Below, in pieces: positions 960 to 31,223 of a stretch of DNA of 47,903 nucleotides. The DNA is from Acidobacteriota bacterium. GTDB taxonomy: Bacteria; Acidobacteriota; CAIWXX01. Numbering within the stretch: position 1 is the stretch's first letter; each line of letters opens with the position of its first letter. The stretch spans positions 1-47,903 of the forward strand of contig JACPPM010000195.1 of assembly GCA_016191015.1 (NCBI GenBank). Reading direction: 5' to 3'. A program made the position numbers and the translations under genes. The notes beneath the pieces were generated by a model. It was given only the letters and a program-made list of their open reading frames with translations, had not been told where the DNA came from and ran no database searches.

Positions 960-3752
960 TTGAGCGCTCCCGAGCCGGATATGCTGGCTGCCACTGACCG
1001 GCAGGGGTTTCCTCTCCGTTTCGCCGCCATTCTCATCGACTCGGTCATCGTCACGGTTCTCATTGTTGTGGTCCTGTTCATTCTCCGGTTGCCATGGCTG
1101 CCACCTTTCCTGGGTGCCGCCTATTTCTTCCTGGAGGTGATGCTCAAGTACACGCCGGGCAAGAGGATTCTCGGATTGGTCGTGCTGAGCGCGGATGGGA
1201 CGGCGGCCGGATTCGAGGCGCTCACGCGTCGCTGGCAGCTCAAGGTCGGCATCTCCTGTCTGATCAACTTCGTGGCGATGGTGGCCGCTCAGGTGAACTG
1301 CCCGCCGATGCTCGTTCAGCTTCTCGTTTATCTGCCGTCTCTGGCTGTGCTCTTGGGCTGCTTCACAATCTTTACTGCGTCGCGGCAGACGTTCTACGAC
1401 AAGATTTCGAAAACGGCTGTTTTCAAAGCCGACGCGGCGAAGCTGCGCGATGAGAAGGAGGAGTTGCAGAGGAGAGCAGACAGGATTTCGAGCTACCTGC
1501 ACACGGCACTGTCCTCCCTGTGGGGGTTCATCAAGTCGCACACCGGCATCTTCGATCGTGACGGGCACTTCTCCTGGAAAGGGTTGCTGCTTTTCCCGTT
1601 CAGGATCGTCAGGTCACGCGCCAGGGCTTTTGTTCGAGGCGCCATTGTTGGGGCCGCGCTCCACTTCTTTGCAGTCAGCTTGAGCGGCGGATACGACGAT
1701 GTCGGTGTCTTCCCTACGAACCTGCTTGTCCCCACTGTCAACGTCATCCGCGGAGGTAGTCCGCTCTCGCCGGTTCTCTTCATATTTGCGACAACCCTAT
1801 GGGGCGTGGTCTCCGCGTTGATTTCGTACGGCCTGAGGGTGGCGCGAGGCAAAAGGAAGGGGACTTCCGGGCCCGTTTCGGCAGGGGTGCTGCAACTGTT
1901 CGTGTCCATTTGTGGGACTCTGCTGGCAGCCGCGCGGCTCTGGGCCGACGACGGGGGCTTCTCGGAGTGGGCGAATGACCCCGCTGGATTCGTAGACCAG
2001 GGCGGGCTCGCGCTCGCCGGTCAGAGCACGGGAGTCGGCCTCGGTACTGGACTCGGGACCGGGATCGGTGACGCTGCCGGCGAAGCAGCCAATGGCGGCA
2101 CGGGGGTTAAACCGCAGGAACCATCGCCTGAACCGCCGCCAGTCGTCGGTGAGGGCCTCCCACCCACAGAAGATCCGGGCGATGACGAGGACGGAGAAGA
2201 CGAGGGCGAGGCGGGCACAGGCGACGACTTGCCGCCCGTTGTGGACACCGGCGACGAAGGGGAAGACGAAGAACCTCCGACTCCATCCCCCGAGCCCTCA
2301 CCGTCACCCGAACCCACTCCGTCGCCGCAGCCGTCCCCGAGCCCGAGTCCGAGTCCTTCGCCGAGCCCGTCTCCATCGCCCGAGCCATCCCCGAGCCCAT
2401 CGCCGTCGCCAGAACCATCCCCGAGCCCATCACCATCGCCGACTCCCACTCCCACGGCGGCGCCCACGCCAACACCTTCTCCGTCTCCAGAGCCGCTGCC
2501 CAGCCCGTCGCCCGAGCCGCCGCTCGTCGCCGGAGCCGGATCGAGCCCAACGCCGACACAGGCTGTCAGCACGACAAACTCGATCATCAAGTGCACGGTG
2601 ATCCCTATCTTCCTCGGACAAGGCGATGCGCAGGGCACGAAGTCTTACGAGATCGACACGCGTGTCGTTGCGAATGTCGGATCCGAACCGTCCGCGATGG
2701 TCACGTGTGTTTCCTCTCACAATTCGATACCGGTTTCGAGCGTCGCGCTCCACCCCCGCGATGTCGTCACCATCCCCATGCATCGTCACGACTTCGAGCC
2801 GGGCGAGATCGTGACCGTGACCTGCTCCATCTCTGAGGGCGGGAGCCGAGTGTGCTCGTGCAGAATCCCGGGTGGTCGACCCACGCCGCCGGTGCCATCG
2901 CCGGAGCCAACCCCATCCCCCGCGCCTCCCCCAGAGCCCTCGTCAGGGCCGACGCCGTCTCCTGCTCCGAGCCCAACACCGTCGCCAGCGCCGAGTCCCA
3001 CTCCCTCCCCGACACCAAGTCCAACTCCGTCCCCGACACCATCACCTACTCCTTCGCCGACGCCGAGCCCAACGCCATCCCCGACACCATCACCCACGCC
3101 TTCGCCAACACCGAGCCCGACGCCGTCACCAACACCGAGTCCGACGCCCTCGCCCACGCCCTCACCGACACCGTCACCCACTCCGTCACCAACGCCGAGC
3201 CCGACGCCGTCGCCAACACCGATCCCCACGCCCTCACCGACACCAAGTCCAACTCCATCGCCTTCACCCGGTCCAACACCCGCGCCGTCGCCTTCTCCAA
3301 CTCCCACTCCAACTCCAGAGCGTCGTAAGCTAAACTACTTCCGGCTGCGCGTGCGCGGCGGATTGGATGTGTCAGTGCCAGGGGGCGGAGCTTCCGCGAT
3401 GACGATAGAAGTCCAAGAAGTCTCCAATTCAATCTTGGGCGGTCTTGACTACGGGAGGACGATTACGCTCCGGTTCTACGGAATTGGGCCCGCCAAGGGC
3501 ATCGGCAAGGCCGGCGCCACCTTCATTTCGGATTGGACCGATCCCTTCACGACGGAAGACGCCGTCACACTCGAGGACTTTGCGGGGCTGGGGAATATCA
3601 CTGGGTGGCCTGGGATAACGATCGGAAGCTTGAGCCTCGGAGGGACTGTCACCCTGTTCTTCAAGGGTCCCAAAGTATCAGTCGACACGAGCAATCGCGG
3701 GCTGAGCATCACTATCTTCCAGTCGATCGCTGGGGTATGGACAAAATCGTAG
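960..3752 (+). CDS. RDD-family membrane protein with two mucin-like Pro/Ser/Thr stalks
   Basis: A 930-residue surface protein. Residues 14-150 form an RDD-type membrane domain with several hydrophobic segments. Further membrane segments lie near 220-240, 270-295 and 310-330. An acidic Gly/Glu/Asp linker follows at about 345-440. A first Pro-Ser-Glu stalk (about 440-520), a roughly 100-residue globular domain with paired cysteines (about 540-640), and a second, nearly pure PSPT stalk (about 640-790) come next. A beta-rich C-terminal domain (about 790-930) ends the protein. The start at 960 is a TTG; an ATG at 981 also fits, and neither has a clear ribosome site. The gene overlaps the next by 16 bases. 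The stalks look like O-glycosylation or cell-wall-spanning regions. The exact role is unknown. Confidence 0.75.
2989..3320 (+). repeat. Coding tandem repeat (Pro-Ser-Pro-Thr array)
   Basis: Imperfect 12-base units of the type ccgacgccgtca encode alternating PSPT tetrapeptides. A second, less regular array lies at 2281-2520. The third bases vary freely while the peptide is constant, so selection is on the protein and not only on recent slippage. Copy number is likely to vary between strains. Confidence 0.85.
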
Positions 3753-5896
3753 CGGCCGGGGTCGCGCCCGAACACTTCGATGCGGCCTATCACGATGCCG
3801 TGGAATGCGCCACGGTACCGTCGGCCGAGTCCATCGTCGACACGATTGTCAGGGAATTCGACCCCCGCAGCGTCGTCGATCTAGGATGCGGCACGGGGGT
3901 CTATCTCGAGCACCTTCTCCGGCGCGGCGTCGATGTCCTCGGGGTGGAGAAATCCACGGTGGCCATCGCGAAGTGTCGCGTGGGCCGCGACCATCTCGTC
4001 GCTCACGACTTGAATCGGCCATTCGCGCACGACCGGCGCTACGATCTCGCGCTTTGTTTCGAGGTGGGGCAGTCGATCGATCCACAGCGCGCGGGAGCCT
4101 TCATCGATACCGTGTGCTCATTGTCCGGCACGGTGCTCTTCAGCGCCGCCCAGACAGGCCAGGGAGGCGCCGGCCACATCAACGAACAACCATGGGAGTA
4201 CTGGCTCGCTCTCTTCTGGGAAAGCGGCTACGAGCTGGATCTCATCCACACGTCGCAGCTTCGGCACGAATGGGCGGAAGCCGGGGCTCCGAGCTGGTTC
4301 GGCAACAACCTCGCCGTCCTCACGCGCTCGCCCTGCTCGACCGATGTTCTATCGGGCGCCATGCAACTGGTGGACTCTGTCGAAGGCTGGCTCACGTTGG
4401 CCGAGGCACGCATTCTTTTTGCGGCGGCCCGGCAAACGCCGCGTGCCTCTTCCATCGTGGAGATCGGAAGCTGGAAAGGTCGCTCCACCGCCGCTCTCGC
4501 CCTGGGCTCTCTGGCCGGTGAAGGCGCTCCAGTCTATGCCGTGGATCACCACCACGGAGCGCGTGACATCGGAGAGTATCTCGGCACGACGCTTTCCGAA
4601 ATCCGTTCGTGGAACGAATTCCAGGCCAACCTCCAGGCCCTCCGCATCACGGACGCTGTGAAACCGATTCTCAAGGATTCCCTCGCCGCAGAAGCCTCCT
4701 GGGACGGAAGGCCCATCGACGTGCTCTGGATCGATGGCGGCCACGAATACGAGATTGTCAAGAGCGACTTCGAGGCATGGCGCGGGCATGTGCGATGCGG
4801 CGGCATCATCGCGATCCACGACACAACCGGCTTCGAGGGGCCCCGCCGGGTGGCCGAGGAGGCGCTGAAGGAGCGGCTGCTCTTGCGCCCCGTGCGGATC
4901 GATTCGCTGACTTACGGGATGGCATCGGGGGCAGAGTCCGGCCGCTCCAGGAGCTCCTCACTTCCGCCCATGCTCGGCTGTCGCGAACGCATCTCCATCA
5001 TGTTCCCGACACATGATGAAGGGTCGAGACTGCGCAGCACCATCGACAGCCTTCTCAGAAACACTCACTACCCTGATTACGAGGTCCTTATCCTTGATGA
5101 TGCATCCGAAGACGATTCGTGCGATTTCTTGTTCCTCCCTCCATACTCGCGCGACAAGCGTCTTCGCTACGTCCGCGTCGACCAGGCGGAAGGGCATCTC
5201 AAGCGGCGAGTCGAGGGCGTGACGCTTGCCACCGGTGAGGTTTTCCAGTTCATCGATGCCCATCATTGCTTCAGCCCGGATTGGCTCTCCAATGTTTACG
5301 ACTGCCTGCGTCGTCATGACGGCAACGCGATCGTGGGCCCCGCGGTGAGTGTACTGGATCCGGTCGTGTGGGGACCGACATCCGTGGTGACGTACGGATG
5401 GAGCTGCGACACAGCGCTTCAGGGGGCTTATCACATCGGTCTGCATGAAGTCAGGAAGGGTGGCCGGGTCCCCTGGCTCTCAGGGCACCAGATGATGATG
5501 ACGCGGCGTCTCTACGACGATATCGGCGGCATTTGCCAGCTCTTTCCAGGCCATGGGACGGACGACCTTGATCTCTGCCTGCGAGCCTTTCTTCTGGGGC
5601 ACGACTGCTACATCGAGCCCACGGCGATCATCGGCCACTACTACAAGAGCTACTTCGTCCGTCCACCGACATGGGATCAGCTCATGGTGAACTACCTGGT
5701 GACGGTCTATCTCAATCTCGGGCCGGAACGGTTCGCGGAGCTGAAGGCGAGGCAGGCGGGCCAGTATGGGTACGAAGGGGGCTGTCAGGCCTTCGAGACA
5801 ATGCGGCCGGAGATCGAGCGGTTCCGAAGTTGGATCGTCAGCCGCCAGAAGCGCCCCACCGTGGATCTGCTGGCCTTGCTCGAAGGAAAACCATGA
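3737..5896 (+). CDS. Trifunctional fusion: two SAM methyltransferases and a GT27-like glycosyltransferase
   Basis: A 719-residue protein with three catalytic modules. Module 1 (about 20-190) is a class I methyltransferase with motif [16 protein letters not shown]. Module 2 (about 215-400) is a second class I methyltransferase of the Methyltransf_24 type, with [12 protein letters not shown] and WIDGGHEY. Module 3 (about 415-690) has a GT-A fold: [21 protein letters not shown], a DAH metal motif (FIDAHHC) and a late [13 protein letters not shown]. The DXH motif and the layout resemble polypeptide GalNAc-transferases. I chose the ATG at 3737, inside the end of the RDD gene, because upstream codons of the frame lie within that gene. 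It ends in an ATGA overlap with the next gene. Its likely target is a glycan or glycoprotein such as the neighbouring stalk protein (inference). Confidence 0.85.
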
Positions 5897-6876
5897 CAGC
5901 CGAATCGGCGAATGGCGCGGTATCCATTGTCGTTGCCGCTCACAACGAAGGTGACAACGTGCGCCGCACAGTGGAGTCGATTGTCGGCAACACGGATACG
6001 CCCGAATTCGAAATCGTGCTCGTCGACGACGGATCCACAGATGACAGCTTCGCCTTTCTCTCGCGAGTCCCGCACGCCGGCGATCGACGGCTCCGCTGCT
6101 ATCGGTTCGGAGAATCCGTCGGCTGCATCCGAGCACGACACCAGGGCTCGCGACTCGCACAGTACGATCACATCGTCTTTCTCGATGCGCACGTCTCGGT
6201 GCCTCAGGGGTGGCTGGCCGCTCTGGAGCGAACGCTGCTGCGATGGGGGCCTCACATCGCCATTACCCCGGATGTCAGCACACTGAACGAAGAGACCTGG
6301 TCGGCGAATCCGTCCACGGGACAGGTGCTCACGATCGACGAAGACCTTGGCTTCGTGTGGCAGAATCTCCGCTACCCTACGCGTCTGATGGCCACGGCCG
6401 GCGGCTGCTGCGTCTTCATGACAAAGCAGCTCTATCGTCAGTGCGGGGGATTCGACCTGGGTCTCCGCCGCTGGGGCTGCGAATTCATCGACTTGATCAT
6501 GAAAGTCTACGCAATCGGCGGTGCCTGCTACCTCGAACCGTCCGTTCTGGTGGGACACCTTTTCAGGAGTGGATTCCCCTACCCGATGGATTACAGGGAC
6601 GTGACCTACAACAAGCTGCGCATCGGTTACATCCATCTCTCCGACATCGCCTTTCGAAACCTCCTTGAGCGTCTCACGCAACAGCATGGGTTCACCGAAG
6701 CGATGGTCGCCTTCCGCGCCGACCTCCACGAGATCGATCATCTTCGGCGGGCGCGACAGGCCGCCAACAGGCGCGATGAGGACTGGTTCGTGCGGATGTT
6801 CCTGCCGGGGCTCGACCCGCGCTGGAGGTCTGAGCCGCCGACGGTGAACCCAATTGGATTCGTGACCGCAGGATAG
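5893..6876 (+). CDS. GT2/GT27-like glycosyltransferase
   Basis: A 327-residue single-module GT-A glycosyltransferase. VSIVVAAHNEG starts the nucleotide-sugar fold at residue 9, VLVDDGSTDD lies near 46, and FLDAHVS near 97 carries the DXH metal motif. RRWGCEFIDL near 192 and VGHLFRSGFPY near 219 closely mimic the WGGENLE and GHVFRxxxPY blocks of animal-type polypeptide GalNAc-transferases. There is no lectin domain, signal peptide or membrane segment, so it probably acts in the cytoplasm. Its start codon overlaps the stop of the fusion gene (ATGA), implying translational coupling. The donor sugar and acceptor cannot be read from the sequence. Confidence 0.88.
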   Translation: MTAESANGAVSIVVAAHNEGDNVRRTVESIVGNTDTPEFEIVLVDDGSTDDSFAFLSRVPHAGDRRLRCYRFGESVGCIRARHQGSRLAQYDHIVFLDAHVSVPQGWLAALERTLLRWGPHIAITPDVSTLNEETWSANPSTGQVLTIDEDLGFVWQNLRYPTRLMATAGGCCVFMTKQLYRQCGGFDLGLRRWGCEFIDLIMKVYAIGGACYLEPSVLVGHLFRSGFPYPMDYRDVTYNKLRIGYIHLSDIAFRNLLERLTQQHGFTEAMVAFRADLHEIDHLRRARQAANRRDEDWFVRMFLPGLDPRWRSEPPTVNPIGFVTAG

Positions 6877-6892: not shown

Positions 6893-7384
6893 ATGCACCC
6901 ACAACACGCCACCCGCTCAGACCCCCGTCCAAAGCCTCGACAGCCGGTCTCGCGAGAGGAGGTGGAGGCGATGGCAGCGGCCCTGCGCTTCGCTCGAGAC
7001 GCACACCAACTCCCACCCGAGGAATTCGCCGCTCTCCATGCTCGATTCAGAGTCTTTGACGAACGGGACACGGCCTGGACCGTCGCGCTGACCCAGCTCG
7101 GATGGCACCGCCTGGAAGTGAACCGCTGGGTCCCGCGCACGCCACCCGACAAATTCTACATGCGTAGAAAAGCATACTGGGCGATCCTGGCGCTCGCGGC
7201 GAAGGAACCCGCGTGCCCGGCCTGTGGATCCCCGCTTCGCGCTCGGTCGAACTTCTGCTTGAGATGCGGAACGCCTGCCAGGAGAATCACCTCGACCCAA
7301 CGACGATGCCCAAATGTCCGTTGCGGAAAGCCGGCAGCGCCCGACAAGAAGTTCTGCACGTCCTGCGGTACGCCGGTGGTCTAG
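6893..7384 (+). CDS. Double zinc-ribbon protein
   Basis: A 163-residue soluble protein. Residues 20-100 are helical and rich in Ala, Arg and Trp, with no family I recognise. Two C-terminal zinc ribbons follow: CPACG/CLRCG near 110-130 and CPNVRCG/CTSCG near 140-160. The second has an extra residue in its first knuckle. A ggagccgg stretch precedes the ATG. It is 16 bases after the glycosyltransferase and 49 before the next zinc-ribbon gene. The role is unknown; such ribbons often mediate protein contacts in signalling or envelope complexes. Confidence 0.75.
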   Translation: MHPQHATRSDPRPKPRQPVSREEVEAMAAALRFARDAHQLPPEEFAALHARFRVFDERDTAWTVALTQLGWHRLEVNRWVPRTPPDKFYMRRKAYWAILALAAKEPACPACGSPLRARSNFCLRCGTPARRITSTQRRCPNVRCGKPAAPDKKFCTSCGTPVV

Positions 7385-7433: not shown

Positions 7434-9464
7434 GTGAGATGCGTTCGCTGTAACTCCACTGTCGAGCCTGGTGAACGGTTCTGCGGCGAGTGCGGGCTGA
7501 GCTTTCCGGGCGCGCCGAGGCATGGGTCCGCGGGGCGGAGAATCCTCCGGCTTGGAGCCGCTCTCGTGCTCCTCGGCGCACTCGCCGTATCGATCCAGAG
7601 GTCGATACCCACGACGCACCGACCGAGCGGCTGGGCGGTCGTCCGGCCGCCCTATCAGGTTTCGGTGTTGCGGGAGCGCGGCGACCTCATCTGGGCTGGC
7701 GGAAGGGATGGCCTCTGCGCGATCGATCGAACGACCGCGACGCTCCGTCCCGCCTTGCCGGGGCAACCCTCACTGCGCTTCGTGAAAGACCTGCTGGTCG
7801 ATCGCGGCGGCCGCCTCTGGATCGCTCACGAAGACGGCCTGACGCTTCTCGATGGCGCGAGCTGGAAGAGCTACGGCGCGGCTGAAGGGTACCCGGGTGA
7901 TTCGGCGAAGTCGCTCCTGGAGGACCGAGACGGCGACCTCTGGGTTGGAACTCCCCGGGGGGCGCTCCGATACGATGGAAAAACATGGCAGCGATTTACG
8001 ACCGGCGACGGACTGGCGGCACCTTCCGTCGACGTCATCTTCCAAGACAAGGATGGCGTCATGTGGTTCGGCGCCTCATCGTCGACTCACGGTGGTCTCA
8101 CGCGATTCGACGGCAAAACATGGCGCACATACGACACGAGCAGCGGGCTGGCTCACAACGCAATCACATCGATCATGCAGGAACCCGATGGCTCGATGTG
8201 GATCGGTACAGGATCGGGGTACCGTGGAGGCGCCAGCCGGCTTGCTGGCGGCACGTGGACCACGGTGACTCGCGAAAGCGGGCTCGCCGGCGAGAAAGTC
8301 TGCTGCATTTTCCGCGACAGCCTCGGCCTCCTCTGGTTCGGGTCGGAGTACGACGGCGCCGCCGTGCACGATGGCAACAACTGGCGCGTTCTGGCTCACG
8401 AGGACGGGCTCGCCGGGCGCGAAGTGAAGCACATGCTGCAAGATTCGCATGGCGACTACTGGCTGGCCACGGACAATGGCGTGAGCCGGATCCCTCGCCA
8501 CGAATCGTCGATCGCGGATCGCACGGTTGTCGTGTACACGTCTGTCGATCAGGTGTACTCGGAGCCGATACTGATGGAGTTCGAGGCAAGAACCGGCATC
8601 CGCGTGAAATCGCTTTGCGATGTCGAAGCTGCCAAGACGACGGGACTCGTGAATCGGCTGATGGCGGAAAACGGAAACCCCCGCGCCGACGTGTTCTGGA
8701 ACGGCGAGTTCTCACAGACGATGCTCCTCAGGCAGCAGGGCGCGCTCGCGCCCTATCGCTCGTCCTGCTCGGCCGACCTGCCGGCGCAGCTCATCGATCC
8801 GGATGGGTATTGGACGGCCGTGGCAGGGCGGGCTCGGGTCTTGCTCGTCAACACGCGACTCGTTCCGCGAGCGAAGTTCCCGAGGTCCGTTTTCGATCTG
8901 CTCGCACCGGCGTGGCGGGGCGACCAGATCGGCCTGGCCTATCCGATGTTCGGGACTTCAGCAACGCAGGCAGCGGCCCTCTACGCCGCGATTGGGCCAG
9001 AGGCAGCGCGAGATTTCTACAGGAAGCTCCACGCGCGCGGTGCACGCGTGGTGGATGGGAACTCCGTCGTGCGCGACCTCGTGGCCAGCGGCCAACTGAG
9101 CATCGGGCTGACCGACACGGACGATGCGTGCGGCGCCGTTCGAGACGGAGCGCCCGTCGAGATCGTCATTCCCGACCAGTCGCCGGACGGCATCGGGACG
9201 CTGGTGATACCCGGCACCGTGGCTCTGATCGCCGGGGCGCCTCATCCCGCCATGGGTCGCCTGCTCATCGATTTCATCGGCAGTCGCGAGGTCGAGGGGA
9301 AGCTGATCGCTGCCGGTTGGAGCGATATCCCGTTGCGCAAAACGGACACCGCACCCGCGTGTCTTGCCGAATCGCGAGTCAAAGGAATGGCGGTGAGGCT
9401 GGAGGATGTGTTCCGTCAGATCGAGATCGCGAAGCATGACATGACTGAGATCTTCGTTCGGTAA
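7434..9464 (+). CDS. Zinc ribbon-TM-beta-propeller-Fe(III)-binding protein fusion
   Basis: A 676-residue membrane-anchored protein that seems to replace a free periplasmic binding protein. A zinc ribbon (CVRCN/CGECG) lies at residues 3-22 and a membrane segment at about 36-54. Repeats of two-component-regulator propeller type follow at about 70-360 (LWIAHEDGL, LWVGTPRGA, MWFGASS, MWIGTGSG, LWFGSEYDG, YWLATDNG). From about 365 there is an FbpA/AfuA-like iron-binding-protein domain (VVVYTSVDQVYSEPILMEFE, then a PRADVFWNGE segment). The GTG start is supported by TCTGGAG about ten bases upstream. Permease and ATPase genes follow directly. The zinc ribbon would face the cytoplasm, with propeller and ligand domain outside (inference). 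Confidence 0.85.
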   Translation: MRCVRCNSTVEPGERFCGECGLSFPGAPRHGSAGRRILRLGAALVLLGALAVSIQRSIPTTHRPSGWAVVRPPYQVSVLRERGDLIWAGGRDGLCAIDRTTATLRPALPGQPSLRFVKDLLVDRGGRLWIAHEDGLTLLDGASWKSYGAAEGYPGDSAKSLLEDRDGDLWVGTPRGALRYDGKTWQRFTTGDGLAAPSVDVIFQDKDGVMWFGASSSTHGGLTRFDGKTWRTYDTSSGLAHNAITSIMQEPDGSMWIGTGSGYRGGASRLAGGTWTTVTRESGLAGEKVCCIFRDSLGLLWFGSEYDGAAVHDGNNWRVLAHEDGLAGREVKHMLQDSHGDYWLATDNGVSRIPRHESSIADRTVVVYTSVDQVYSEPILMEFEARTGIRVKSLCDVEAAKTTGLVNRLMAENGNPRADVFWNGEFSQTMLLRQQGALAPYRSSCSADLPAQLIDPDGYWTAVAGRARVLLVNTRLVPRAKFPRSVFDLLAPAWRGDQIGLAYPMFGTSATQAAALYAAIGPEAARDFYRKLHARGARVVDGNSVVRDLVASGQLSIGLTDTDDACGAVRDGAPVEIVIPDQSPDGIGTLVIPGTVALIAGAPHPAMGRLLIDFIGSREVEGKLIAAGWSDIPLRKTDTAPACLAESRVKGMAVRLEDVFRQIEIAKHDMTEIFVR

Positions 9465-9488
9465 GGTGAGGGCGTGGAGGGCCGTGAA

Positions 9489-11123
9489 GTGAACGCGGCG
9501 GATCGAGACATACCGATGAGATCCCGACACCTCGGGTGGTCGTCCGCGTTGCACTGTGCCGGGCTGGTGCTTTTCCTTGTCATCGTCTACGGGCCTGTGG
9601 GGGCCCTGGTCGTCGAATCCTGTCGCGCCGTCACAAGAAGCAACTTCGATTGGCTCCTCCTGGCGCTGCCGTCGGGGAGGCGCGCGGTGTTGTTGATCAG
9701 AAGCGTCGGCCTCGCGTCGGGCGTCGCACTCTCCAGCACGGCGATCGGCCTGCTTGTGGCCTGCACGCTATGGCAATGGAGAGCCGGGGCGCGGGCCTAT
9801 GTCAGATGGGGGCTCCTGCTGCTCGCTCCGCTTCCGCCCTACATCCATGCCCTGGCCTGGACCTCCACCTGGACGGCGTTCACGACGCTTCTCCATTTCC
9901 AGTCGCTTTCTTCCATGACCGGCTGGCTGGGTGCGTGGTGGATCCTCACGATGACTTGGCTGCCGGTCTCCACCGGTTTCGCCCTGGTCGGACTCGAATC
10001 TGTCGACGTTGCGCTGATCGAGGCTGGGCGCGTCGCGCGTGCCGATTCCCACGTCTTCCTGAAGGTCGCCGTTCCATTGGCTCTTCCGTACATTATCGTG
10101 GGTGGTGTCTTTGGTTTCGTTCTCACCCTCACTGATTACAGCGTGCCGTCATTGTGCTCGGTCAATGTGACGGCCCTGGACGTTTTTGCCGAGTACAGTG
10201 CGAGCAACGAGCCGGCCAGAGCTTTTCTCCGTGCGCTACCGATTCTCACGATCACGGCTCTCGCAGCCGTCCTGTGCCAGGCTCCGCTTCAGCGCGCCGC
10301 GCAGAGCCCGCCGTGGCGCCGACGCGAGCCCTCCCCATCGCTCGCAATGCCTCGGTGGCTCACACAACTACGGCGCGCCGCCTTGGCCCTGATGGTCATG
10401 CAGATCGCGGTGCCACTCCTGAGCCTGCTCGTCGCGACCGGTTCGTGGAAGAGCCTCACGTTGTCGATTGCGGCCGCCCGTAGCGACATCGCGGACTCTG
10501 CCTGGCAGGCGATCGTGACCGTCGCCCTCTGCGTGCCGATAGGCCTGGCTGTGGCGCAGGAGCTGGATGGACACGGGCACCGGGCGCGACTTTGGCTATT
10601 CTTGGCGACCGCGCCGCTTGCGATTCCGGCGCCTTTGGCCGGCATCGGAGTCATCACGATGTGGAACCGCCCGGCGTGGATCGACCTCTACGGCAGTAGT
10701 CTTGCGCCTGCGATGGCGACGTCAGCTCGCTTCGCACCGTTCGCCGCACTGATCATGCTGGCTCAGTGGCGGCGTCTTGATCACTTGTTGATCGATGCGG
10801 CGCGGGTTCATCAGACCAGCGCTCTTCGCACGTGGCTCCAGGTCCGCCTGCCGATGCTGGCGCCGGGGTTGGCAGCCGCGGCGTGCGTTGTGTTTGCATT
10901 GAGCATCGGGGAGCTTGGCGCCACGCTCCTCGTCACCCCCGCCGGAGCCTCGACGCTCACGATGCGCATCTACAACTACCTCCACTACGGTGCTTCCGGC
11001 ACTGTCGCCGGTCTCTGCCTGGTGATGACGGCTGTCGCGATCGGCGCGGTGGGCCTCGCGCTCGCGATTCTTGGCGGATGGAACATCATCGGCCTCTCGA
11101 CAGACCGCGGAGGACGATCGTGA
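9489..11123 (+). CDS. Fe(III)-type ABC transporter permease, fused two-domain
   Basis: An inner-membrane permease of about 544 residues with two homologous halves, each with about six membrane segments, as in FbpB/SfuB-type Fe(III) permeases. EAA-like ATPase-contact loops are visible in both halves: EAGRVARADSHVFLKVAVPL near residue 180 and DAARVHQTSALRTWLQVRLP near 435. The GTG at 9489 is preferred because TGGAGG sits eight bases upstream; a GTG at 9474 is also in frame. The gene lies 24 bases after the propeller/binding-protein fusion and overlaps the ATPase gene by GTGA. The substrate is iron by family only; another metal, phosphonate or polyol is possible. Confidence 0.88.
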   Translation: MNAADRDIPMRSRHLGWSSALHCAGLVLFLVIVYGPVGALVVESCRAVTRSNFDWLLLALPSGRRAVLLIRSVGLASGVALSSTAIGLLVACTLWQWRAGARAYVRWGLLLLAPLPPYIHALAWTSTWTAFTTLLHFQSLSSMTGWLGAWWILTMTWLPVSTGFALVGLESVDVALIEAGRVARADSHVFLKVAVPLALPYIIVGGVFGFVLTLTDYSVPSLCSVNVTALDVFAEYSASNEPARAFLRALPILTITALAAVLCQAPLQRAAQSPPWRRREPSPSLAMPRWLTQLRRAALALMVMQIAVPLLSLLVATGSWKSLTLSIAAARSDIADSAWQAIVTVALCVPIGLAVAQELDGHGHRARLWLFLATAPLAIPAPLAGIGVITMWNRPAWIDLYGSSLAPAMATSARFAPFAALIMLAQWRRLDHLLIDAARVHQTSALRTWLQVRLPMLAPGLAAAACVVFALSIGELGATLLVTPAGASTLTMRIYNYLHYGASGTVAGLCLVMTAVAIGAVGLALAILGGWNIIGLSTDRGGRS

Positions 11124-11782
11124 TCGCCGTCCATCAGCTCACAAAGCACTTCCCTGAAGGGCCGAACGCGGTCGATCATGTGTCCTTCGATATTCCTGCT
11201 GGCTCTTCCGTCGCCGTACTTGGACCCTCCGGGTGCGGCAAGACGACGATGCTGCGGCTGATCGCGGGGCTCGAGAAACCGGACGACGGAATCGTGCTTG
11301 TCGACGGCCGGCGGGCCAGCGATCCATCATGGGTCCTGCCGCCTCATCTTCGAGACATCGGCATGGTCTTTCAGACACCGGCTCTCTGGCCTCACCTGAC
11401 GGTCGAGCAGAATATCCTGTTCGGAGTGCACGGGCTCAGGAGGCGGGAGGCCCGGAGGCGAACAGGAGAGCTGCTGGAGATGATCGAGTTGGAGGGGATG
11501 GGGAACCGCTATCCGAGCCAGCTCTCGGGAGGCCAGTCGCGCCGGGTGGCGCTCGCTCGAGCCCTCGCTCCCCGCCCTCGCCATCTGCTTCTGGACGAAC
11601 CTCTGACCAGCCTCGACCGCGGTCTCAAATGGCGCATGCTGTCGGTGATCGGGTCCGAGCTGAAGAGAGAAGCCGCGTGCCTGCTCTACGTCACGCACGA
11701 CGCGGAAGAAGCCGAGCGAGTATCGATGCGTGTGCTGCAGATGGAATCCGGCCGCATCCCGGAGCAAGGCCCCGTGTCATGA
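11120..11782 (+). CDS. ABC transporter ATPase, short form
   Basis: A 220-residue cytoplasmic ATPase that energises the preceding permease. Walker A is GPSGCGKTT near residue 36, the Q-loop MVFQTP is near 85, the signature LSGGQSRRVALARAL is near 134, Walker B is LLLDEP near 156 and the switch histidine is in VTHDAEEA. The signature has S where Q is usual (LSGGQQRR). The protein stops soon after the nucleotide-binding domain and lacks the C-terminal TOBE region of FbpC-type ATPases, which are about 340 residues. The GTG start overlaps the permease stop. Confidence 0.9.
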   Translation: MIAVHQLTKHFPEGPNAVDHVSFDIPAGSSVAVLGPSGCGKTTMLRLIAGLEKPDDGIVLVDGRRASDPSWVLPPHLRDIGMVFQTPALWPHLTVEQNILFGVHGLRRREARRRTGELLEMIELEGMGNRYPSQLSGGQSRRVALARALAPRPRHLLLDEPLTSLDRGLKWRMLSVIGSELKREAACLLYVTHDAEEAERVSMRVLQMESGRIPEQGPVS

Positions 11783-27791: not shown

Positions 27792-30700
27792 CTACCACAC
27801 CCGCAGATCCTCCGGACGGTAGCCAACACCATTCTTCACGACCATCTCGACCGAGTCGGTGTTCTCGATCTTTTCCAGCGGATTGCGCTCGAGCACCACG
27901 AAGTCGGCCAGCTTGCCGGGCTCGATCGAGCCGAGGTCTCGGTCGAGGCCGAGGGCCTGCGCGGGAGCGAGCGTCGCGACGCGCAGCGCCTGGAGCGGGG
28001 TCATGCCGCCCTGCACGAAGGCCCAGATCTCCCAGTGCGGTCCGAGCCCCTGCATCTGCCCATGCCCGCCCAGGCAGACCCGCCCGCCTGCATCGACGAC
28101 CTTCTTGGCCGAGGTGGCTACGTCGATGTGGTGCCATTCATCGTCGGGCGCCATCACGCTGCGGATGCGCCCAAGCCGGTCTACGACGCTCTGCGGCACG
28201 AACCGCAGCAGCCGCGTGTCCTTCCAGATATCGTAGTGCTGGAAAAACCACTTGTCGCCCGAGAGGCCGCCGTACGCCACGAGGAGCGTCGGCGTGTAGG
28301 CCGTGCCGCTGCGTGCCAGCAGGGTCACGACATCCTTGCGCAGCGGCGTGACCGGCAGCGAATGCTCGAGTGTCGTGTGGCCGTCGATCACCATCGTCAT
28401 GTCCGCCTCGAGGTTCCCGCCGCCCTCGGGCACCACCATCAACCCTTCCTCGCGCGCCGCTTGAATCACCCACTGTCGCTGATCACGCCCGGGTTGCATG
28501 TATGACTTCACGCTCATGGCCCCCAGCGCCTTCAACCGGCGAACGTGACGGCGTGCGTCGTCGAGGCTCTTGATCTGGGCCCGGCTGGGATCGTCGGCCC
28601 CGTAGAGAACGAAGCCGGTCGAATAAATGCGCGGCCCTGTCATCAGTCCGGCCTCGACCATCTCCGCCTGCGCGAATACCTCGTGCGTGGCCGCCGATGG
28701 GTCGTGGGTCGTCGTGACGCCATAGGCCAGGTTAGCCATGTACTTCCAGGGGCGTTGGGGGAGGATGTCCAGGGTCGTGTAATGCAGGTGGGCATGCTCG
28801 TCGAAGAGGCCCGGGATGATCGTGCGCCCCGCCGCGTCGACCGTGCGCGCTCCGGCCGGGATCGACACCTGCCCTTCGGCGCCCACGTTCACGATCCTGT
28901 CGGCGTCGACGACGATCGTCCCGCGCTCGATCACTTCGTCGCCTTTCATCGTCACAATCCGCGCGCCGGTGTAGGCCACCAGCCCTGAGGGGCGGGCCCG
29001 TGGGACTTCCAGCTTGATTTCGATCCTTTCGGACTCAGGAAGCTTTTTCGCTTCCTCCGTTGCCGGCGGGGCGTTTTTCGCACCGGCGGGCTTCTTCTTC
29101 TCCTCGGCCTGAGCTTGCGCGAAGGCCTTCTCGAGGGTCAGGCGATGGTAGGCCGTTCCGAAAATCCAGCCCACACGGTGGCTGTCCGACGACCAGCTCA
29201 CCCACTCCCCGCCTTCGTCACTGAGTTGACACAAGGGGAGCGGAGCATCCGTCAACGAGGCCTCCACCGTCTGCCCGCTCCACTCGGGGAACGCCGCGAC
29301 GTAAGCATTGTGAAGTTCCATGAAGGCCACCCACCTTCCGTCGGGCGAAACCAACGCCTCCTCGGCCATGCCCCATCTCATGTGCACGCGCCGATCCGTG
29401 CCGTCCAGTTTTACAGACACCAGAATCGCCTTAGGAACCTCCGTGGGTTTTTCTGTCTTATCGTCTTCAAGGTAGAAGATGCGTTCGCCGTCGCGAGAGA
29501 AGAACGGCCTCGCCATGCGCCGATTGCTACCGCGGTTCTTCGTGCCGACGACGAAGTGGCCCGCTCCGCCGCCGGCCTCGACCCATTGCACCTCGTGCCA
29601 GATCTCCTCGCCCAAATCGTATCCGCGCGCCGTCACGCCGCTCCCCTTCAGATAGGCAATCTTCGACCCGTCCGGCGAGAACGACGGATTTGCGTACTGT
29701 CCCGCGTTCGTCGTGACGCGGCGCGGCACGGACCCGACCTCCGCGGTGACCGCCCATACCTGCCCGTAGCTCTTGTCGTTCCACGTGACGTAGGCGACCT
29801 CCTTCCCATCCGGCGACCAAGCCGGGGAGAACTCGAGATCGTCCCCGGCCGTGAGGCGCTTGGGGGTCCCACCCGGAAGCGCCATTGTGTAGAGGTGGCC
29901 GAGCGCCGAGAACGCCAGGGTCTCCCCATCGGAGGACTCGACCGGCCATTGCACGATCCGCGCTCGCACCATGTCCTGGACCGCCGGACGCGGCGTCCGC
30001 AGCGCCTGCGACACGCGCTGCTCGACCGCGGCCGTGAACGGGATCAGCGTACGGTTCCCCGTGGAGAGCTCCCACTTCCAAATCCGACCTTCCGCGGTCG
30101 CCACGACGGCTCCGCCGTCCGGGGTCCATGCATAGCCCGGGAAAACGCCGTGGTCAGCAAACCCCTCCTGCATGTCCCTCTGCACCGCCGGAGCCAGCAC
30201 GCGCGTGCTGCCTGTGGCGAGGTCCATCAGCTCGAGCCGTGTCTGCGTGCGCACCCGCCGCACATAGGCCATCAGCTTCCCATCGGGGGAGATCCGCGGA
30301 GCGGCCATGCCTCCCCAGTCCTGTGAGAGCGGCACCGTCTGGTTGTTCCGCAAATCCAGGCGCTTGATCTGCCAGATTCCCTCGTCCACATTGCGGTCGT
30401 AACGATAGCGTGAGTCTCGGGCCGAGAAGTACAAGAAGCGCCCATCCGGCGAGAACTCCAGGTCGGCCGCGTCCGGCTGATCCTCCCTCTTCGTGATCTG
30501 GACTCCCAGCCCGCCCTTGATGTGCCACATGTAGAGGTCGATCGTGCCGATCGAGGAGGTGTCAGTGGTGCGCTTCCGCCCGACGATGTAGTCGCCGCTG
30601 GGGCTCCACTCCGGCGCGCTCACCGTCTTCTCCTTCTCCGTGCTGATAGCACGTGAGTTGGAGCCCTCCAGATCGCAGATCCAGATGTTCTCGATCCCGC

Positions 30701-31064
30701 TGCGATCGCTGGTAAAGGCGATCCACTTACCGTCGGGGCTGAAGCGCGGCTGCACGTCGTAGGATGGGCCGCTGGTTATCCGCCGGGCCTCGCCGCCGCC
30801 GATCGGCAGGAGGTAGAGGTCGCCCAGCAGCGAGAAGACGATGCGATCACCCGCAGGATGGACGTCCAGACTCATCCAGGTTCCCTCGTCCGTTGTGAAC
30901 GTGACAACGCTGGCGGGCCCGTGTGCATCGTCGACCTTCCAGTTCTCGCCGCTTACCCGTGCTGGCGCCGCGGCCGGCTTCGACATCGCGGTCGCGGCCA
31001 TGGCCGCAAGCAACGTCATTATCGGAAATAGTGCCCTCATCCCGATGGACGATGTGGATCTCAT
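27792..31064 (-). CDS. Secreted TolB-propeller / amidohydrolase fusion
   Basis: A 1090-residue exported hydrolase. A signal peptide covers about residues 1-30 (ALFPIMTLLAAMAATAMS). Two thirds of the protein are WD40/TolB-like propeller blades with repeated FSPDGKWIAF and WSPDGKEVAY motifs (about 50-640). The amidohydrolase domain (about 690-1090) has the metal motif DEHAHLH near 755, a TTLEHS block near 895, and the C-terminal QALRVATLAPAQALGL and GKLADFVVL typical of imidazolonepropionase/prolidase-like enzymes. The start at 31064 has AGGGAGA upstream; an in-frame start at 31217 would add about 50 residues before the signal peptide. The layout suggests a peptide- or cyclic-amide-hydrolysing enzyme, with the propeller gating access (inference). 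Confidence 0.9.
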   Translation of the reverse strand: MRSTSSIGMRALFPIMTLLAAMAATAMSKPAAAPARVSGENWKVDDAHGPASVVTFTTDEGTWMSLDVHPAGDRIVFSLLGDLYLLPIGGGEARRITSGPSYDVQPRFSPDGKWIAFTSDRSGIENIWICDLEGSNSRAISTEKEKTVSAPEWSPSGDYIVGRKRTTDTSSIGTIDLYMWHIKGGLGVQITKREDQPDAADLEFSPDGRFLYFSARDSRYRYDRNVDEGIWQIKRLDLRNNQTVPLSQDWGGMAAPRISPDGKLMAYVRRVRTQTRLELMDLATGSTRVLAPAVQRDMQEGFADHGVFPGYAWTPDGGAVVATAEGRIWKWELSTGNRTLIPFTAAVEQRVSQALRTPRPAVQDMVRARIVQWPVESSDGETLAFSALGHLYTMALPGGTPKRLTAGDDLEFSPAWSPDGKEVAYVTWNDKSYGQVWAVTAEVGSVPRRVTTNAGQYANPSFSPDGSKIAYLKGSGVTARGYDLGEEIWHEVQWVEAGGGAGHFVVGTKNRGSNRRMARPFFSRDGERIFYLEDDKTEKPTEVPKAILVSVKLDGTDRRVHMRWGMAEEALVSPDGRWVAFMELHNAYVAAFPEWSGQTVEASLTDAPLPLCQLSDEGGEWVSWSSDSHRVGWIFGTAYHRLTLEKAFAQAQAEEKKKPAGAKNAPPATEEAKKLPESERIEIKLEVPRARPSGLVAYTGARIVTMKGDEVIERGTIVVDADRIVNVGAEGQVSIPAGARTVDAAGRTIIPGLFDEHAHLHYTTLDILPQRPWKYMANLAYGVTTTHDPSAATHEVFAQAEMVEAGLMTGPRIYSTGFVLYGADDPSRAQIKSLDDARRHVRRLKALGAMSVKSYMQPGRDQRQWVIQAAREEGLMVVPEGGGNLEADMTMVIDGHTTLEHSLPVTPLRKDVVTLLARSGTAYTPTLLVAYGGLSGDKWFFQHYDIWKDTRLLRFVPQSVVDRLGRIRSVMAPDDEWHHIDVATSAKKVVDAGGRVCLGGHGQMQGLGPHWEIWAFVQGGMTPLQALRVATLAPAQALGLDRDLGSIEPGKLADFVVLERNPLEKIENTDSVEMVVKNGVGYRPEDLRVW

Positions 31065-31223
31065 CTCAGTCTCCCTCTTCTCTGTATTCCAGTGCGTTAG
31101 AGCGTTTCCGCATCGAGCGGGCTCTCCGCGAAGCGGCCGTAACTCCGCACTCTCTACTACGCCCCGATCGAGCCCGGGTTTCACGAAAGAGAATGCAGAC
31201 TCGTTCGATAAAGTCACGAATCG

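Follow-up and report, generated by a model that had tools for sequence, protein, structure and literature searches.

Related systems

In OpuA and GlnPQ, the substrate-binding protein (SBP) is fused to a permease domain and is thereby covalently tied to the membrane complex. A tied SBP means a high local concentration, a feature that these importers share with the gene considered here, which lies at 7434-9464 of the window (i.e., the whole 47,903-nt stretch of Acidobacteriota DNA that was analysed); in our gene, however, the fusion partner of the SBP is a separate propeller subunit. The ferric-binding proteins FbpA, FutA and HitA have the fold of its SBP domain, whereas the window differs from them in having Asp-Asp for the tyrosine pair, a fused propeller and transmembrane helix, and a short ATPase of 220 aa. 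Hybrid two-component sensors of the BT4663 type, which combine two propellers with a Y_Y_Y domain (PMC5121618), use the same Reg_prop repeat family, with TM 0.76-0.78 over one propeller. In contrast to BT4663, the window protein has one propeller and not two, lacks both Y_Y_Y and a histidine kinase, and places its transmembrane helix at the N-terminus and an SBP at the C-terminus. The SBP HptA, whose fold is related, acts by contacting the membrane protein HptS (PMC8774646); there, however, the two proteins are separate, the partner is a histidine kinase instead of a propeller, and the signal is glucose-6-phosphate. Genes SYNPCC7002_RS15765-RS15790 of plasmid pAQ7 encode an orthologous SBP, permease, ATPase and propeller, and zinc-ribbon proteins as well; unlike in the window, the propeller and SBP are separate, the gene order is another one, and the products are labelled only generically.

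Architecture of the fusion gene and its neighbours

The gene at 7434-9464 (+) is one uninterrupted, GTG-initiated open reading frame (ORF) of 676 aa, with GGAG 10 nt 5' of the GTG. It and its neighbours comprise the following features.

960-3752 (+): RDD membrane protein with an ADD motif and a long Pro-rich tail (RDD, Pfam)
6893-7384 (+): upstream protein, W-rich domain (about residues 29-85) and two zinc ribbons (Zn_Ribbon_1, DZR over cut-off)
7434-9464 (+): fusion gene, 676 aa, zinc ribbon, transmembrane helix, seven-bladed propeller and SBP (ORF, Pfam, AlphaFold2, GC3)
7440-7493 (+): N-terminal zinc ribbon, residues 3-20, CxxC-x10-CxxC (Zn_Ribbon_1, four Cys)
7542-7598 (+): single transmembrane helix, residues 37-55 (hydropathy maximum 1.99)
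7635-8492 (+): Reg_prop propeller, seven blades, residues 68-353 (Reg_prop, AlphaFold2)
8493-8525 (+): join of ~11 residues in place of the SBP lipoprotein signal (comparison with relatives)
8526-9461 (+): SBP domain, FbpA/AfuA fold, 'TSVDQ...DVFWNGEF...TDTDDA' subfamily (profile, AlphaFold2, Foldseek)
9111-9128 (+): TDTDDA motif, Asp-Asp at the FbpA iron Tyr-Tyr position (alignment to FbpA)
9474-11123 (+): permease, two transmembrane domains in one chain (BPD_transp_1 over cut-off in two stretches)
11120-11782 (+): ABC ATPase, short form, 220 aa (ABC_tran, E=4e-34)

A sequence-only reading of the window had placed a zinc ribbon, a membrane anchor, a propeller and an SBP in one chain, and the single ORF, the Pfam matches, the four cysteines and the AlphaFold2 models bear this out. 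The ribbon cysteines are residues 3, 6, 17 and 20, all four of CxxC-x10-CxxC, and Zn_Ribbon_1 matched this N-terminus below its curated cut-off (E=0.0014, 18.8 bits versus 25). Residues 37-55 are the sole strongly hydrophobic segment ahead of the propeller and probably form an N-in/C-out signal anchor; three K/R residues lie on each side of the helix, a charge balance that does not decide the topology. The propeller matched Reg_prop with E=2e-28 (95 bits), and its model (pLDDT 94) shows seven four-stranded blades in a ring closed by an N-terminal strand. The SBP domain matched SBP_bac_6 (E=1e-14), SBP_bac_11 and SBP_bac_8 over their cut-offs, was modelled with pLDDT 92, scored 504 bits against the subfamily profile, and is 44-60% identical to 26 relatives. 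AlphaFold2 was run on the SBP and the propeller separately, using family alignments; an alignment of the full-length fusion with the separate proteins misplaced propeller rows and was dropped for structure prediction.

The binding protein had also been said to adjoin its own permease and ATPase, which was confirmed: genes with BPD_transp_1 and ABC_tran follow the fusion gene directly and in that order, and SBP, permease and ATPase all scored over their curated cut-offs. The GTG start of the ATPase gene overlaps the permease stop by a few bases, and orthologues of the permease adjoin separate SBPs in other loci. Between the RDD-tail gene and the upstream zinc-ribbon gene, positions 3533-6876 encode two GT2 proteins, one of which also has two methyltransferase domains.

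Separate propeller and SBP genes in other genomes

A separate propeller gene was found by SBP, permease and ATPase genes in about 33 loci from at least nine phyla, archaea included; the hosts comprise Chloroflexota, methanogens, Bacillota, Pseudomonadota, Thermodesulfobacteriota, Sumerlaeota, Acidobacteriota, Armatimonadota and Cyanobacteriota. Most of these loci have the order SBP-permease-ATPase-propeller on one strand, usually with the propeller immediately behind the transporter genes, whereas in the window the propeller is fused ahead of the SBP. The separate propellers are ~340 aa long and carry an N-terminal membrane anchor (one transmembrane helix) or a lipobox, two of them resembling lipoproteins. 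They are 32-50% identical to the window propeller, and profiles built without the window scored it at 382 bits (propeller) and 481 bits (SBP). Three loci outside the profile-building set (L118, L130 and L131) contained the core set with propeller and zinc ribbons, and two more (L128 and L129) were repeats of L018 and L029. L118 (8422-19504) is the plasmid pAQ7 of Picosynechococcus PCC 7002, with the full unfused system: zinc ribbon, SBP, permease, ATPase, propeller, tailed membrane protein and zinc ribbon.

The phylogenies of the two halves are concordant. In a tree of 27 transporter-linked and 7 same-genome sensor-type propellers, the window propeller was placed with the former, apart from the latter (SH-aLRT 88), next to L016 (Desulfobacca) and L107. 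The window SBP groups with the same Desulfobacterota kin as its propeller, and lies with Desulfobacca, Geobacteraceae and Dehalococcoidia. On the SBP tree, presence of the propeller costs 5 changes versus 20.5 with shuffled labels, a count in which many propeller-less rows have only about 1.5 kb of flank. L085, L088, L089, L105, L111 and others have flanks of ~5 kb or more on either side, likewise without a propeller, and no propeller was found within the stretch available for L023 and L037, whose SBPs fall in the propeller clade.

We put at roughly three in four (0.77) the probability that this gene naturally unites two subunits which a recurrent and apparently undescribed ABC import system normally keeps apart. 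One would be a lipoprotein SBP from a distinct subfamily with the FbpA fold, the other a dedicated, extracytoplasmic propeller of seven blades, anchored by one transmembrane helix or by lipid. The idea of a tethered binding protein with a two-component-regulator-type propeller gained support from Pfam, AlphaFold2 and the comparative loci, and the link between propeller and transporter was much strengthened.

Tethering, ligand presentation and signalling

A membrane-tethered SBP-propeller subunit of an importer is the best-supported reading of the chain. Fusion in the window and separate neighbouring genes elsewhere together imply contact between SBP and propeller, and neither proves it; we infer this contact, together with the inward direction of transport. 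The transmembrane helix would anchor the whole chain; helix and propeller together take the place of the lipoprotein signal of the SBP. With the topology that we infer, the propeller would sit at the outer membrane face and keep the SBP beside the two-in-one permease; the SBP would capture the ligand and hand it over to the permease in cis, with ATP hydrolysis powering uptake. The propeller would scaffold the SBP, and might bind an envelope partner or the source of the ligand.

The presumably zinc-binding N-terminal ribbon has to be considered together with the zinc-ribbon proteins of the other loci. Zinc-ribbon ORFs were found in 20 of 28 propeller loci versus 0 of 11 controls outside the system; four further "controls" with zinc-ribbon matches were members of the system's own clade or genomes. 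Because zinc-ribbon proteins are thus regular members of the system, the fused ribbon is probably a third fused element, on the cytoplasmic side. None of the separate propellers that were read carries an N-terminal zinc ribbon.

An alternative is transport-coupled signalling, in which loading of the SBP would alter the propeller and the transmembrane helix would pass the change to the cytoplasmic zinc ribbon, which would recruit the zinc-ribbon proteins of the operon to tune expression or activity. The best structural match of the propeller is the sensor BT4663, HptA shows that an SBP of related fold can signal via a sensor kinase, the "two-component system" SBP structure 6lkg is among the Foldseek matches of the SBP, and the regular presence of zinc-ribbon proteins would suit such a route. 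However, Pfam scans of the fusion gene and of flanking ORFs revealed no kinase, receiver or HTH/DNA-binding domain, the two propellers and Y_Y_Y domain of BT4663-type sensors are here reduced to one propeller with no Y_Y_Y, and the separate propellers do not have the N-terminal ribbon. Moreover, the two lipoprotein-like propellers cannot by themselves signal through a transmembrane helix. We therefore regard this signalling route as rather unlikely; tethering or ligand presentation is no less probable.

Many propeller loci also encode a membrane protein whose N-terminal domain is W-rich and whose tail looks secreted. At L020 (4806-8240), L021 (717-5891), L040 (1514-6718) and L043 (9038-12337), the membrane proteins are large and contain the W-rich domain one to three times. 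The domain has the consensus YRELxxxRxxGxIxxEQFxxxVxxLRVQDxxGxWWQxDPxxGxWxxWDG, and its carriers have transmembrane helices, very variable tails and, in many cases, an ADDCxRDPLNAxDCLRT-like motif; no Pfam family scored over cut-off in the W-domain membrane proteins scanned. In the window, the W-rich domain of the protein at 6893-7384 was recognised (i-E 1.2e-4) by a profile made solely from propeller-ABC loci. The RDD protein at 960-3752 resembles the tailed proteins of L021 and L040 in layout, had no significant sequence match to the tailed proteins of other loci, and is a possible, weak candidate for their counterpart.

A broader proposal, which we advance tentatively and hold to be somewhat less probable than not, is that SBP, permease, ATPase, propeller, zinc-ribbon proteins and W-domain membrane proteins with tails make up a single, undescribed envelope machine of bacteria and archaea, in which an extracytoplasmic propeller couples the importer to a zinc-ribbon module in the cytoplasm. 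The window fusion would then unite the physical core of this coupling in a single chain.

The SBP subfamily and its substrate

The sequence-only reading had called the C-terminal part an FbpA-like, iron-binding domain, and only the first half of that description held. The fold is that of FbpA and FutA (Foldseek TM 0.84-0.88 for the best matches, about 21% identity, E about 1e-23), whereas the iron site is lost: in the alignment, Tyr195/Tyr196 of Haemophilus influenzae FbpA correspond to Asp-Asp, invariant in the subfamily, and His9 to Asp. Residues D204, D206 and D207 are invariant across 27 sequences of the subfamily. A ferric-iron importer, with an FbpA-type iron-binding protein tethered to the propeller, would suit the closest solved relatives, which are ferric-binding proteins of the same fold, and the label "iron ABC transporter permease" that permeases of relatives sometimes bear. 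Against this stand the changes at these three positions and the binding of hexose phosphates (AfuA, VcA0625) and PLP by other proteins of this fold; we consider ferric iron very unlikely and rejected it as the substrate on the binding-site alignment. As a separate candidate, the 2-aminoethylphosphonate SBP (PhnS) was rejected at 83 bits versus an NCBIfam curated cut-off of 310.

A propeller-less sister clade of SBP-permease-ATPase genes often lies by ChrB/ChrB_C and sometimes by ChrA (chromate-resistance genes). These neighbourhoods suggest that the sister clade is an importer linked to chromate or metals, which sometimes bears the label of an iron transporter, and the ChrB/ChrA adjacency is a hint that the wider SBP family has a role related to metals; no ChrB/ChrA link was found in the propeller loci examined. 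Sister-clade loci are L085, L088, L089, L090, L105, L119, L120 and L121, some of which also have a 3-keto-disaccharide-hydrolase-like secreted protein. The sister clade also has a member in the genome of the window itself: a second SBP, without a propeller (L002, G000:C206), which lies by a 3-keto-disaccharide-hydrolase-like protein. In one genome of the methanogen-phylum sample (G1146), an SBP gene of the subfamily is split by an in-frame TAA (L110, 8236-9315).

Authenticity of the join

An assembly or frameshift artefact might have fused a propeller gene to an SBP gene, given that the assembly is a draft of 349 contigs and that ours is the sole fused example found. No other propeller-SBP fusion was detected in 1,985 genomes or in a scan of GTDB contigs, which relied on exact matches to short peptide patterns and can overlook distant cases; within the data searched, the fused form stands alone, and the SBP relatives in the GTDB contigs are ordinary separate proteins. 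However, the reading frame runs through without a break, and third-position G+C (GC3) is even across the join (propeller 0.76, SBP 0.78, permease 0.77). The join leads from the natural C-terminus of the propeller to the mature N-terminus of the SBP, and in relatives a signal peptide or lipobox stands directly before the homologous VVVYTSVDQ. An artefact would thus have had to bring functionally matched partners together at mature domain boundaries, both from families whose genes adjoin elsewhere. A frameshift or misassembly between propeller and SBP, named at the outset as what would overturn the reading, is accordingly extremely unlikely, and we rejected it on frame, composition and matched partners. 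The window gene order is unlike the usual one, so that simple loss of a stop codon between neighbours would not have yielded the fusion.

Chance joining to another of the genome's sensor-type propellers, with no functional meaning, might be thought of in a genome with 134 query-matching places, mostly such propellers, but is scarcely credible given that the window propeller falls in the transporter-linked clade and that the genome's sensor-type propellers compared reach at most 179 bits per domain versus 411. Judged by tree and profile scores, the window propeller is not borrowed from the genome's sensor kinases.

Distribution and significance

Strong matches to the SBP subfamily were found in 3/247, 3/301, 4/247, 3/40, 5/349 and 1/349 genomes of six phylum samples. 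In the window's phylum, a propeller lies beside an SBP in 2 of 396 genomes, and of the two genomes compared in its class, the second is without the system. The system is rare and patchily spread, and this distribution suggests horizontal spread. PADLOC gave no defence-system match, and no relative was found on viral contigs. In the open-licence literature, we found no description of a propeller-SBP-zinc-ribbon system and, among pAQ7- and chromate-related papers, none on the pAQ7 operon; the propeller-linked ABC system is apparently undescribed.

The fusion serves as a "Rosetta stone": a propeller labelled as a generic "two-component regulator" is, in this family, the partner of a transporter's binding protein. 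It provides about thirty genes of bacteria and methanogens, which are hypothetical or bear generic labels, with a role that can be tested, and brings to light a rare ABC system in which zinc-ribbon and W-domain proteins recur. Picosynechococcus PCC 7002 is transformable and holds the unfused set on a plasmid, which makes contact, substrate and signalling directly testable.

Elsewhere in the window, positions 27792-31217 (-) encode a 1141-aa protein with a PD40 propeller ahead of an amidohydrolase domain.
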